Assembly: GCF_020171845.1 (NCBI RefSeq) | Contig: NZ_JAIVAM010000011.1 | Coordinates: forward strand, 1-64,000 | DNA: 64,000 nucleotides | Direction: 5' to 3' | Source: Cytobacillus kochii | Lineage (GTDB): Bacteria; Bacillota; Bacilli; Bacillales; Cytobacillaceae | Shown here: one piece after another, positions 44,284 to 48,158 of the stretch | Layout of the letters: every line of letters begins with the position of its first letter | Numbering within the stretch: position 1 is the stretch's first letter | Made by a program: the position numbers and the translations under genes | The notes under the pieces: model-generated | The model's input: only the letters and a program-made list of their open reading frames with translations | Database searches by the model: none | Told to the model about the DNA's origin: nothing

Positions 44284-44445
44284 ACCAACACCTCCTCTCT
44301 TATCTTACCTTCCCTCATCATCGCTTTAAAAGAATGCCGTGATAACCCGCATATCCATCCACATATAGATATCCTTCAAACGGAGAGAGGAATCTCTTCG
44401 GATGCTTACTCGCTCTTGTTTAATGATAATCAAACAAGATAATCG

Positions 44446-44625
44446 GATCGGGCCTGGATGTTTGCCAATACGCCAAAAGAAGCTCAAGCAAGTGCTGTAA
44501 CGTATAGTATTGTAGAAAAAGACGAAAGAAAATGGAATAATTCCTTATGAGTATTTGAAGTTCCTGTTTACAGAGACGCCATTCTTCCATGGTCCAAGTC
44601 ATTGGCAGCCTCTTGTTTTACGAAA
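44446..44625 (+). pseudogene. Remnant of an IS66-family transposase (TnpC C-terminal part)
   Basis: One frame reads RAWMFANTPKEAQASAVTYSIVEK, and after a frameshift near 44522 another frame reads NGIIPYEYLKFLFTETP. Together these follow the IS66 transposase C-terminal pattern (N-W-x-F-x-N-T-P-K-G-A-x-A-S-A, then E-N-G-L-x-P-Y-x-Y-L). A stop lies upstream and there is no intact ORF. The rest of the element is gone. It is inferred to be an old insertion next to the bacteriocin-like locus. Confidence 0.75.
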
Positions 44626-44643
44626 ACGAATAAATAAATCATA

Positions 44644-44680
44644 AAACAATCCCCACCTAATGAAAAGGTGGGGATTGTTT
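44644..44680. terminator. Strong inverted repeat downstream of the IS66 remnant
   Basis: AAACAATCCCCACC and GGTGGGGATTGTTT are perfect complements around a 9-nt loop. With A- and T-rich flanks it can end transcription from both sides and insulates the locus that follows. Confidence 0.8.
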
Positions 44681-44822
44681 GACACTTACAATTGCAGCAC
44701 CTGTTAATAATTACACTATTTGTGAAAATATTATTATTTATACTCCTAATTATTGTAATTTAAAGAAAGTTATGTTATTTTTATACTCGTGGTAAACAAA
44801 TAATAGAAAGTAGGGATGAAAT

Positions 44823-45152
44823 ATGAAAAAGAAAATGACAAAACTTATTTGCTCGGCATTGGTAGTTGGTTCAATTGGATTAGGTGCAAATACAGCGTTT
44901 GGGGCCTCTTTCGGAAATTCTTCTAGTGGAGCCTCTACTAAAGAAGTTCTTGAAATTAGGTATAATGGGGCTGCCTGGAATTACTCTAGTTCGGCTTATA
45001 GGTCTACTTCGTTTAAATACTCACGAAATGGTAAAACTTTAATGAACAAAACCGCCTATTCTAGTAAAGTGACAGGTTCTGTTTGGGACGATTTAAGATG
45101 GGGAGACAAGTATACTACGAAATTTTCTTGGAGTCGTGGAGCAAAAAAATAA
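44823..45152 (+). CDS. Secreted small peptide, lactococcin-972-like bacteriocin precursor (candidate)
   Basis: A 109-residue precursor. Residues 1-28 form a Sec signal peptide (KKK, hydrophobic LICSALVVGSIGLG, AFG-A cleavage region). The mature part is basic, Ser- and Trp/Tyr-rich and has no cysteine: AAWNYSSSAYRSTSFKYSRN and VWDDLRWGDKYTTKFSWSRG. This layout and the following permease/ABC genes fit the lactococcin 972 group (non-pore-forming, lipid II-binding in Lactococcus), but sequence similarity by eye is only partial, so it may be a new type. RBS TAGGGATG precedes the ATG. A candidate -10 TATACT lies at about 44783. AT-rich. Confidence 0.55.
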   Translation: MKKKMTKLICSALVVGSIGLGANTAFGASFGNSSSGASTKEVLEIRYNGAAWNYSSSAYRSTSFKYSRNGKTLMNKTAYSSKVTGSVWDDLRWGDKYTTKFSWSRGAKK

Positions 45153-45206
45153 TTTTCTATGATTTTAATATTCATAATTTTTTTGTAATATAATATAGGA
45201 AATCGT

Positions 45207-45240
45207 TCGGGCCTGATAGGTACTTTTCTACAGGGCCCGA
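45207..45240 (+). terminator. Hairpin between the peptide gene and its export/immunity genes
   Basis: TCGGGCCTG pairs with CAGGGCCCGA with one bulged G, around a 15-nt loop, followed by TTCGACTTTT. It can act as a partial terminator, giving more peptide mRNA than transporter mRNA. A TATAAT at 45275-45280 may be a second start for the downstream genes. Confidence 0.6.
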
Positions 45241-45326
45241 TTCGACTTTTAAATCTTATAAAATACCGCATTACTATAATTATGAATAATAACTACGTAG
45301 TTGATGTCAACTAAAAGGTGATACTA

Positions 45327-45767
45327 TTGAAATATTCTTTATTTAGATTTATCGACGTTATCGAGGCTTTTGCTATTTACCTAATGTGTTTTTCTACAAA
45401 TTTAATATTTACTTATGTAAAAACTTTGGATTTAGGAGATTCTTATATTTTAAGAACTTTTTTAGAAAGTATTATAGAGTATCAGCTTTTAATAAATATT
45501 TTTCTTACATTTGTTATGATAGTATTTCACTATCAATTTTTAAATCGTAAGAAAACAGAAATATCCTGCCGAATACTTGTAGGAGATACTATGGTAAATG
45601 TTGTGATTCGGTATATCTTGAATAGTCTAGCTATATTAGTGTTTAGTTTTTTACTATCACTCTTATTAAACTTCTATTTAGAGTTGAATATAACCAGTAA
45701 TCTCTACTTAGTTTTTATTTTTATTATATATATATTAATTAGTGCAGGTAAGGTGGAAAAAGAATGA
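45327..45767 (+). CDS. Half-size FtsX-like membrane protein of the bacteriocin-like locus
   Basis: A ~146-residue membrane protein with four predicted helices (about 10-30, 50-68, 95-115, 123-141). Between helices 2 and 3 it has HYQFLNRKKTEISCRILVGD, which resembles the cytoplasmic coupling loop of FtsX/MacB permeases (R-K-x-E-I-x-I-x-x-x-L-G). It has no extracytoplasmic domain, so it looks like a stripped-down permease half. TTG 45327 has AAAGGTG 7 nt upstream. Its stop overlaps the next ATG (ATGA). Alternatively it is an immunity protein. Confidence 0.6.
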   Translation: MKYSLFRFIDVIEAFAIYLMCFSTNLIFTYVKTLDLGDSYILRTFLESIIEYQLLINIFLTFVMIVFHYQFLNRKKTEISCRILVGDTMVNVVIRYILNSLAILVFSFLLSLLLNFYLELNITSNLYLVFIFIIYILISAGKVEKE

Positions 45768-46984
45768 GAATTTTACGTTTTTTTATACTTAAAATATTTT
45801 TAAAAAGACCGTTACTTGTTTTGGGTATGATAACATTGCTTTTGTTAGCCAATTATCTTTCTTTTACTACTGTTCGTTCAGTTATATCAACTTTTCAAGG
45901 CTATGAAGAAATGGAAAAACTGAATCAAGAAGGGACTATTATTGCTAATCTAGATCCAGATAGTGAAGCTGATTTTAATAGAATTAAGATTGAAGATACA
46001 CAAAAAGTATATGAATACTTAAACAACAATTACACTTATGCTCTGCGAGTCGATGGTTTTGTTACTTTATTGCCTAATGAACATCAGATGGAAGTTCCTT
46101 TTAATTATATCGATGAAGAGGCTTATAAGATAAATCAATTGGAATTATCTCAAGGAGACCACTTAAATTTCAATTATAAATTTAATAAAGATGACATACC
46201 TGTTTTAATAGGTGCAGGTTTAGCCAAAACATATCCTGTAGGGTCAAATATTGAGATCACGGATCCTGTGACCCAACAACTAGTTAATTTAAAAGTTCAA
46301 GGAGTTTTGAAGAAGAATGCTCAAAGTTCTAATTTTTATGCTCCCAATTCAAAGAATTATCATAACTTCTCAATTTTTCTACCTATTAATGAAGAATTTA
46401 TTCAAAATGCGGGTCTTGACCTCCACGTTAATGGTTTAATGGATCTTATACTTCTAGATTCTACAAAAGAAGAAGCAATGAATTTAAGAGAAAATATCAA
46501 GGAAAATCTAGGTTTAGAATTTAACTTTTTTAATCAACAAGAAAATTTTGAGTTCTTTGAAGATTATTATTTAAATTCATTAATAATCATCTGTACTATC
46601 ACCCTTATTTTAACTATAATCATTGTAGGTCTAGCTATATGGAATAATTTAGTGAGTGTTCGATTAATGATAAGAGATTTTACAATCAATTTATTAGTTG
46701 GATTAAGTTATTCAAAACTAAGAGCAATTTTCTATAGCTATTTTGGAATGTTGTTCTCTATTATTCTAGTCATAGTATCTGTGATCACCGCTTATAATAG
46801 ATACAGCTCTTGGTTAAGAAACGATTCAACTTTTGCTACTTACGGAATACTTGGTTTAATAAGTATGGATTGGATGGCTTTACTTATTGTTCTTTTTATA
46901 GATGTTATTATTGCATTTGTGATTGTTGAACTTACGATAAAAAAAATCAAAAGTATTCCGATATCCGTAGGGGTGTTACAATGA
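45764..46984 (+). CDS. FtsX/MacB-type ABC transporter permease
   Basis: A 406-residue protein with one N-terminal helix (~15-36), a large extracytoplasmic domain (~40-270), and three C-terminal helices (~271-296, 320-343, 362-388). NNLVSVRLMIRDFTINLLVGLSYSKLRAIF matches the FtsX cytoplasmic coupling loop. LIGAGLAKTYPVGSNIEI and LKVQGVL resemble the MacB-type periplasmic core. It overlaps the genes on both sides by 4 nt. Together with the next ATPase it forms a type VII ABC system, likely for release of, or immunity to, the upstream peptide. Confidence 0.8.
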   Translation: MRILRFFILKIFLKRPLLVLGMITLLLLANYLSFTTVRSVISTFQGYEEMEKLNQEGTIIANLDPDSEADFNRIKIEDTQKVYEYLNNNYTYALRVDGFVTLLPNEHQMEVPFNYIDEEAYKINQLELSQGDHLNFNYKFNKDDIPVLIGAGLAKTYPVGSNIEITDPVTQQLVNLKVQGVLKKNAQSSNFYAPNSKNYHNFSIFLPINEEFIQNAGLDLHVNGLMDLILLDSTKEEAMNLRENIKENLGLEFNFFNQQENFEFFEDYYLNSLIIICTITLILTIIIVGLAIWNNLVSVRLMIRDFTINLLVGLSYSKLRAIFYSYFGMLFSIILVIVSVITAYNRYSSWLRNDSTFATYGILGLISMDWMALLIVLFIDVIIAFVIVELTIKKIKSIPISVGVLQ

Positions 46985-47643
46985 ATAGTATAATTAAGCT
47001 AGAAATCCAGAAAAAAACATTCAAGAAGAAAGATTTTTCTATTCTAAATGACTTTGATTTGGAAGTAAAACCTGGGGAAAGACTTTCTATTATAGGAGAG
47101 TCTGGAGTTGGAAAAACTTCTTTGCTTAATATTCTTGGTCTACTTGATACAGACTATCAAGGGAATTATAAGCTTTTTGATTCACCTGTTAATGATTTAT
47201 CCCGAAATAAACTAGCTGAGTGGCGTAATCAAAAAATTGGTTTTGTTCTCCAGGAGTCCTCGCTTATTAATTCTTTAACCATAGAGGACAATATTAAACT
47301 GCCGCTTATGTATGGTAACGTTGAAAAAGACCTAACTGTACAAGAGCGATTTAAACGGATTACTAATAAAATTGGGATAGAGTCCATTTTGGAAAAAAAA
47401 CCACTTGATTGTTCTGGGGGTCAGCGATCTAGAGCTGTTTTTGCTAGGGCTGTAATTATGAATCCCCAAATAATTTTATCAGATGAGCCAACTGCATCTT
47501 TAGATTTAGAAAATAAAAATAAAATTATCAATCTACTATTTGATATGAATAAAGAATTTAATACTACTATCATTACAGTGACTCATGATTTAGATGTAGC
47601 CAATCGTCATGAACGAATAATTACTCTCGAAAGGAATGAATAA
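46981..47643 (+). CDS. ABC transporter ATP-binding protein (MacB/LolD type)
   Basis: A 220-residue ABC ATPase: Walker A GESGVGKTSLLNILG, Q-loop GFVLQESSLINSLT, signature CSGGQRSRAVFARAV, Walker B QIILSDEPTASLD, H-loop TVTHD. The LLNILG and NSLTIEDNIKLPL segments place it in the LolD/MacB/lactococcin-972-exporter group. The signature SGGQRSR differs from the usual SGGQQQR. It overlaps the permease stop by 4 nt and is probably its motor. Confidence 0.88.
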   Translation: MNSIIKLEIQKKTFKKKDFSILNDFDLEVKPGERLSIIGESGVGKTSLLNILGLLDTDYQGNYKLFDSPVNDLSRNKLAEWRNQKIGFVLQESSLINSLTIEDNIKLPLMYGNVEKDLTVQERFKRITNKIGIESILEKKPLDCSGGQRSRAVFARAVIMNPQIILSDEPTASLDLENKNKIINLLFDMNKEFNTTIITVTHDLDVANRHERIITLERNE

Positions 47644-47644
47644 A

Positions 47645-47800
47645 ATGGGATTCCTTACAATGGTCATGTCATTCATCCTTGGCATATTCTTCACCATTCT
47701 TGGCACTTCTCGCAGAAAACGTCATTTGTTGTATAAGTTTTTATTAGCGCTAGGAATTATTCTCATTCTTTTTGCTGTTTATCTAGGATGGCCTAAATAA
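47645..47800 (+). CDS. Tiny two-helix membrane protein, immunity candidate
   Basis: A 51-residue ORF, MGFLTMVMSFILGIFFTILG... ...KFLLALGIILILFAVYLGWPK, forming two hydrophobic helices around a basic RRKRH loop. It starts 1 nt after the ABC gene stop, with GAAAGGAATG about 9 nt upstream, so it is most likely translated from the same mRNA. I do not recognise the family. Small membrane proteins in this place often give self-immunity, which is inference only; it could also be an unrelated host gene. Confidence 0.55.
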   Translation: MGFLTMVMSFILGIFFTILGTSRRKRHLLYKFLLALGIILILFAVYLGWPK

Positions 47801-47928
47801 GAATCATAATCATTATAGATCATTAAATGAGTTATATTTAGTATCTGGGTGAAACGTTTATTTTATTTACGCAGCTTTTTTAGTGAACTGAAAAGCACAT
47901 AGACATCCATATAAATAAGTAATTGATG

Positions 47929-48158
47929 AACCCAATAAATTATCTTTCTCTTGGGATACTGACGGATGGGTTGTCACCTTTTTACTAGAAGAAGTAGACA
48001 TTAGCACAAAATTCACACTCATTCATAGTGGTTGGAAAGAAGCGAATACAATTCTTACTAAACCAAATGAAAAAAGCGAAATTATTCGTGAACGTATGAA
48101 TAATGGATGGGAAGCCATCGTGCAAAAACGTTTAAGGATGGCAATAGAGCAATCATGA
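47929..48158 (+). pseudogene. C-terminal fragment of an SRPBCC (AHSA1/START-like) protein
   Basis: The frame reads SFSWDTDGWVVTFLLEE...TKFTLIHSGWKEA...MNNGWEAIVQKRLRMAIEQS-stop, with the two GW motifs and the terminal GWxxxLxxL-like region of SRPBCC/Aha1-domain proteins. A TAA at 47926 cuts the frame and no start or ribosome site is present; about the first half of the domain is missing. Its stop overlaps the next ATG as ATGA, so it was once co-translated with arsR. Confidence 0.75.

Follow-up and report, generated by a model that had tools for sequence, protein, structure and literature searches.

Which function ties a gene for a small secreted peptide to the four membrane-transport genes that follow it in Cytobacillus kochii? 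The five genes occupy positions 44823-47800 of the stretch of DNA that was analysed, the first 64,000 nucleotides (nt) of contig NZ_JAIVAM010000011.1, referred to here as the window. All five open reading frames were verified in one direction, at the places given by an earlier reading made from the letters alone (the sequence-only reading), which described a bacteriocin-like locus and left it between a variant of the lactococcin 972 family and a separate one. The locus is probably a mobile bacteriocin-plus-immunity cassette, in which a Sec-secreted peptide with presumed antibacterial activity is accompanied by a type VII ATP-binding cassette (ABC) transporter serving self-immunity and not peptide export. 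Its elements are the following.

44823-45152, plus strand: peptide precursor (gene 1), 109 amino acids (aa)
44823-44903, plus strand: predicted Sec signal peptide, residues 1-27, assigned by eye; hydropathy segment at residues 8-26
44904-45149, plus strand: mature part, 82 aa if cleaved after residue 27
45207-45240, plus strand: RNA hairpin in the spacer between the peptide and transporter genes
45327-45767, plus strand: putative small permease subunit (gene 2), 146 aa
45764-46984, plus strand: MacB-type (type VII) permease as modelled (gene 3), 406 aa
46981-47643, plus strand: ABC ATPase (gene 4), 220 aa
47636-47800, plus strand: protein with two hydrophobic helices (gene 5), 54 aa, retained alongside the transporter

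The spacer between genes 1 and 2 measures 174 nt. Gene 2 could start at a GTG at 45318 or at a TTG at 45327. Read from the GTG, gene 2 spans 45318-45767 and encodes 149 aa. The TTG, which is preceded by AAGGTGAT and yields 146 aa, is the better start and agrees with the starts in relatives. Genes 2 and 3 as well as genes 3 and 4 overlap by 4 nt, as described before; the 1-nt gap described with them is in fact an 8-nt overlap between genes 4 and 5. The impression that the DNA is more AT-rich than its surroundings was borne out, with a G+C fraction of 0.24-0.31 in 500-base segments over genes 2-3 and of 0.31-0.41 in the flanks shown (one flank segment as low as 0.31).

The five genes are a mobile block. 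A tblastn search with the five proteins found the block, or whatever portion of it the contig holds, in 18 further loci, two of which (L010 and L020) are truncated by contig ends. The linkage goes beyond chance because these 18 other loci carry it. Indeed, the comparison of neighbourhoods proposed in the sequence-only reading revealed the same gene order in Bacilli, on plasmids, in Clostridia and in Actinobacteria. Plasmids of Enterococcus casseliflavus, Macrococcoides canis and Mammaliicoccus sciuri are the three carriers among 72,556 plasmid records, each with both peptide and permease. Chromosomal or draft hosts within the Bacilli are Paraliobacillus, Cerasibacillus, Terribacillus, Neobacillus, Exiguobacterium (two), Bacillus pumilus and Staphylococcus auricularis; those elsewhere are a Clostridiales, a Lachnospiraceae, an Actinomycetaceae, a Schaalia and a Cutibacterium. 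Genome G103 also holds the block. The spread is patchy: the block occurs in 4 of 151 relatives, once merely as a weak fragment with stops, and the peptide profile matches 7 of 398 genomes of the class, one match being a remnant (G808). The 54-aa gene is present in 15 of the 17 cassettes in which its place is held (window included), once frameshifted, and is absent from L019 and L021.

Moreover, the cassette was more similar than recA in all four genomes compared. Nucleotide identities of cassette and recA were 88.7 vs 76.2% in G744, 86.0 vs 76.2% in G103 and 84.3 vs 78.6% in G086; in G437, the larger piece of the cassette reached 85.3% and the smaller 78.9%, with recA at 76.8%. An empty insertion site was found in a genome of the same genus (G015), where homology ends at window position 44334 and restarts at 48038, with 89% identity up to the former and again from the latter. 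The site (L132) has 309 bp where the window has 3.7 kb. The inserted segment and its flanks comprise three features.

44335-47880, no strand: inserted segment, missing at the same site in G015; right edge somewhere between 47800 and 48037
44454-44569, plus strand: IS66 transposase remnant with a broken frame, 72% to an annotated IS66 transposase of Alicyclobacillus
47931-48158, plus strand: C-terminal remnant of an interrupted AHSA1-type gene (E 5.7e-4, under the curated cut-off)

The IS66 remnant and the truncated gene between which the locus had been said to lie are thus the IS66 piece on the left and the end of the AHSA1-type gene on the right. A Pfam search with a 34-aa piece of the IS66 remnant gave no hit at E <= 0.01. 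A near-symmetrical hairpin of 15 pairs, terminator-like on the minus strand, lies immediately left of the cassette at 44644-44680.

A second copy is found in the same genome (L003, contig C8, 122000-138000), about 1 kb from two genes of the phage integrase family. This copy is partly damaged: the peptide gene lacks its first start codon, and a frameshift disrupts the 54-aa gene. Genes 2-4 are open, with 93-96% protein identity to the window copy and ratios of nonsynonymous to synonymous substitution (dN/dS) of about 0.12-0.25; the value for the mature peptide is 0.35. On the Mammaliicoccus sciuri plasmid pNW26-2 (L009), genes for a DncV-like nucleotidyltransferase, a PemK/MazF-type toxin and AbiH stand on one side of the cassette and a PIN-like gene on the other, and these surroundings are possibly a plasmid defence island. 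Peptide and small-subunit genes also occur at the extreme end of a contig from a viral collection (L133:5001-5779, IMGVR_UViG_2718217975_000001), which may be host or phage DNA.

As for the transporter, the model places the 406-aa protein among the type VII (MacB-like) permeases. It consists of one transmembrane helix (TM1), an extracellular domain and three more helices (TM2-4), the fold of MacB, LolE and BceB. The model matches MacB, the S. pneumoniae transporter 5xu1 and BceAB, with superpositions of high root-mean-square deviation in which domain placement is not trustworthy. MacB_PCD was detected in 4 of 15 permease sequences (best 6.2e-7), the window's own permease being without a match. 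The 146-aa protein contains four hydrophobic segments, lacks an extracellular domain and gave no match when compared with the 406-aa permease. Two of the 18 small subunits matched DUF1430 weakly (best E 0.024), and three matched FtsX (best E 1.5).

The membrane proteins of 15 lactococcin-972 loci are 661-783 aa long; 12 have eight hydrophobic segments and three have seven. In those 12, the order is one segment, a domain, four segments, a domain and three segments, i.e., two MacB-like halves. Instead of one long membrane protein with two FtsX-type halves, the cassette has two proteins. In a profile alignment, the small subunit fell on the first half of the DUF1430 protein (250-339) and the permease on the second (642-763), in line with the suggestion of the sequence-only reading that two pieces replace the long protein. 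Scores were 28.2 for the small subunit and 39.0 for the permease, vs 22.6 and 30.3 for the best of 60 block shuffles and 24.9 and 21.9 for reversed profiles; hhalign probabilities were low (7 and 29%), and the only FtsX-type proteins of other loci in the comparison were those of the lactococcin-972 loci. The two proteins presumably pair as a heterodimer.

The ATPase (PF00005, 4.7e-27) points to the same kinship. TIGR03608, the model proposed for checking it, was the best of 192 NCBIfam models, at a score under its cut-off (185.7 vs 254.85 bits). In the ATPase tree, 17 cassette and 15 lactococcin-972 ATPases stand together, apart from 16 ATPases of the window genome (97/96), and the two sets each form one clade (100/100 and 95/91). 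The cassette ATPases are likely sister to those of lactococcin 972, a placement that is provisional given the length of the two branches and an outgroup drawn from a single genome. The general picture of a compact, mobile, bacteriocin-like locus with a lactococcin-972-related transport module was hence upheld by the best ATPase model, the tree and the DUF1430 matches. The window genome has neither a PF09683 nor a DUF1430 match.

Several genomes keep the transporter and have lost the peptide. The permease profile matched in 7 of 397 genomes of the order: in four, the peptide adjoins the permease, and in three, all of one genus (G452, G615 and G656; g64), genes 2-5 are present without the peptide at the locus. 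No peptide was found genome-wide at E <= 0.1 in G452 and G615. The transporter genes of the three genomes are open and, judging by dN/dS values of 0.13-0.41 among them, under purifying selection; the 54-aa gene is present in all three. In G808 (L145:3540-9001), an inverted fragment of the peptide gene adjoins open genes for the small subunit, the permease and the ATPase, and the 54-aa gene was not detected at this orphan. Three YezG-like immunity genes and an LXG-domain gene lie downstream of the transporter, apparently making the locus an immunity array. Furthermore, an early in-frame stop interrupts the Neobacillus peptide gene (L013), whereas genes 2-5 of this locus remain open. The sequence-only reading had counted neighbours that keep the transporter and lack the peptide as evidence against itself; this came true in part, as four genomes do so, having no whole peptide gene. 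In our view, these peptide-less transporters are orphan immunity systems, as would suit a bacteriocin locus, and they argue against a role in export alone. A parallel in which the weapon was lost and its companion genes stayed is reported for pneumococci, where scbBC occurs alone in 157 of 571 genomes (PMC11796350).

The peptide itself is strongly conserved. Its 18 aligned sequences, which include that of the window and a partial one from L022 but not that of L013, come from Bacilli, Clostridia and Actinobacteria and share 25 invariant columns, all inside the predicted mature part. This part is basic, free of Cys and rich in Trp, Tyr and Ser, as described before; an isoelectric point of 10.05 and a mass of 9171 Da were calculated for it. 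An AlphaFold2 model from 15 sequences has five beta strands, at residues 44-52, 62-68, 71-78, 82-90 and 99-105. The mean predicted local distance difference test score is 65.0, with residues 1-41 under 50 and block means of 68-90 beyond. A Foldseek search of the model against PDB and BFVD returned nothing at E 0.001, which shows neither kinship nor its lack. The five-stranded model may or may not share the fold of 2LGN, a solved structure of the lactococcin-972 family.

Membership of the peptide in the lactococcin 972 family (PF09683/TIGR01653), which the sequence-only reading had considered, was not supported. None of the 18 sequences matched PF09683 or any lactococcin NCBIfam model in a scan with hidden Markov models (HMMs) that listed matches at E <= 10 (5 Pfam and 10 NCBIfam families) and whose filters remove most matches above about 0.1. 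A lactococcin-972 profile was built from 13 of the 20 matches found, which come from other Bacilli. The mature peptide scored 14.4 against it, which is within chance, as 12 of 200 column shuffles were equal or better. The 13 members have the signature GG-x-W-x-[YH]-G plus S-x-Y-x-H. The motif G-x-x-W-x-Y (G49, W52, Y54; matched by eye) is common to both families; the other two Gly residues and S-x-Y-x-H are absent from the peptide family. A second solved structure of the lactococcin-972 family is available as PDB 9hkj, and no paper naming it was found in the open literature.

The spacer behind the peptide gene probably forms an RNA stem. The stem-loop at 45207-45240 has a folding energy of -22.2 kcal/mol for 45200-45247 (z -4.35), and none of 200 shuffles was as good. 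Inspection of the folds revealed a comparable G+C-rich stem in 14 of 19 spacers, the five without one being clostridial and actinobacterial. Covariation was examined in 13 spacers (L008 and the five stemless ones left out), some rows of which are, by eye, one base out of register. Changes on both sides occur in 5 of 12 pairs. Paired cells amount to 83.3% vs 78.7% in shuffles (1 of 500 as high), and the covariation score was reached by 4 of 500 shuffles; the number of pair types was no better than in shuffles (204 of 500). A control slid by -1 has 67.9% paired cells, yet six pairs with changes on both sides, one above the structure itself. Taken together, these values are only suggestive of selection conserving the stem. 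No clean T-run follows the hairpin, which could be a partial terminator, a stabiliser or an expression divider.

The following mechanism would account for the cassette. The general Sec pathway would export the 109-residue precursor, and cleavage by signal peptidase would leave a mature beta-sheet protein of some 82 residues, basic and rich in Trp, Tyr and Ser, which may act on the envelope of other Gram-positive cells. Export by Sec and action on other cells are suggested by the signal sequence, the basic Trp-rich beta-strand body, the mobile and patchy spread and the linked transporter. The 146-aa and 406-aa proteins would form an unequal heterodimer with 4 + 4 helices and one extracellular domain and, together with the ATPase, a MacB/BceAB-like type VII transporter. 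This transporter would not carry the peptide across the membrane. ATP use in the cytoplasm would move the extracellular domain, so that the peptide is stripped off or its target freed at the outer face of the membrane, resulting in self-immunity. The 54-aa protein may be an accessory of the transporter, and the hairpin may allow an excess of peptide over transporter.

In view of published precedents, genes 2-4 most likely serve self-immunity, either by stripping off the peptide or by freeing its target. According to a review, transporters of the MacB family perform work outside the membrane instead of pumping through it, and one of them, YknXYZ, acts against the toxin SDP (PMC5985334). Target protection of cell wall synthesis appears to be how BceAB-type transporters function (PMC7038271), and the genes orf2-orf3 of lcn972 are referred to as putative immunity genes (PMC4055356). 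Several observations weigh against a bacteriocin cassette with an immunity transporter. The peptide belongs to no bacteriocin family by HMM and is unrecognised by the copies of Pfam, NCBIfam and PHROGs searched, an outcome that the sequence-only reading had itself named as adverse. Its mature core is unusually invariant for a weapon. In G656, one of the orphan genomes, there is one peptide match (E 0.044) on another contig. The peptide is intact in Staphylococcus auricularis (L017) and Schaalia (L021), with the permease in pieces of different frames in the former and its frame stopping after 371 codons in the latter; a producer that lacks immunity would be surprising, except where a sequencing error or an insensitive host accounts for it. 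Finally, in the review of MacB transporters, the related AS-48EFGH is listed under bacteriocin export, followed by a question mark (PMC5985334).

An export function is what that entry would favour: the transporter would export or release the peptide, and immunity would lie in the 54-aa protein alone. The name of TIGR03608, "putative bacteriocin export ABC transporter", points the same way. Bacteriocin loci often include very small membrane proteins for immunity. However, the precursor already carries a Sec-type signal, four genomes retain genes 2-4 although they have no whole peptide gene, and the 54-aa gene is missing from two cassettes (L019, L021) and was not detected at the G808 orphan. 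Together with the account of a permease type by which substrates are not carried through the membrane (PMC5985334), this makes an exporter distinctly unlikely. It is also unlikely that the peptide is no weapon at all but is secreted to serve a type VII transporter, as its partner or sensor, and that this transporter confers resistance to foreign antimicrobial peptides or performs an FtsEX-like remodelling of the cell wall. Such a partner would suit the very constant mature core across phyla, and type VII transporters can use extracytoplasmic partners, e.g., MacA (PMC5985334). An obligate partner, though, would hardly have a patchy, partly plasmid-borne spread or be lost repeatedly by itself as this peptide is, and YezG/LXG genes adjoin the G808 transporter.

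More serious is the proposal that the peptide is a true but highly diverged member of the lactococcin 972 family, which would bind lipid II and block formation of the septum; the DUF1430 protein would then have been divided into two proteins. It overlaps with the bacteriocin-plus-immunity cassette preferred here and differs from it on peptide fold, target and ancestry. The adjoining ATPase clades, the in-order matches to the DUF1430 halves (0 of 60 block shuffles as good for each) and the all-beta model with its common motif argue for it. Mediterrocin, with 18% identity, is presented as an example that the fold can persist (PMC12345188). The missing HMM matches, the chance-level profile score and the absence of S-x-Y-x-H, invariant in the 13 lactococcin-972 peptides, argue against it, and we hold it to be possible at somewhat less than even odds. 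The same tentative standing is given to a specific form of the bacteriocin-plus-immunity cassette, namely a new family of Sec-secreted beta-sheet bacteriocins with a target unrelated to that of lactococcin 972 and with an asymmetric type VII immunity transporter, one permease subunit of which lost its extracellular domain. The two-gene form may then be an ancestor or a replacement of the fused DUF1430 protein.

With this cassette, an undescribed peptide family found on plasmids of Enterococcus and staphylococcal relatives joins the short list of unmodified Sec-secreted bacteriocin candidates. The cassette is also a natural test of what the membrane protein and the ATPase do in lactococcin 972 loci. 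Thanks to the split permease and to the several genomes in which the transporter persists by itself, the part of each gene in immunity is open to separate testing.

Among known systems, the lactococcin 972 loci (lcn972-orf2-orf3, streptococcin B scbABC and mediterrocin) come closest in layout. They too begin with an unmodified Sec-secreted peptide followed by a membrane protein and an ABC ATPase; the ATPases are related, and transporter genes are reported to persist where the peptide is missing (scbBC, PMC11796350). In contrast, the cassette peptide is unrecognised by the family models and may not be filed under that family, an extra 54-aa gene is present, and proteins of 146 and 406 aa with one extracellular domain stand in place of a single protein with two. 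The Gram-positive MacB-type systems YknXYZ, BceAB and AS-48EFGH also combine a type VII permease with an ATPase and presumably act at the outer face. Unlike them, the cassette has a fixed linkage to one peptide gene and an unequal permease pair, and its five genes include neither a MacA-type adaptor nor a two-component system. TMcin, described as a staphylococcal plasmid bacteriocin, likewise joins peptide and ABC transporter genes on a plasmid of a Gram-positive host; according to its description, it has a transmembrane helix and a metalloprotease gene (PMC12328743), whereas the cassette peptide is a predicted beta-strand protein with a Sec-type signal.

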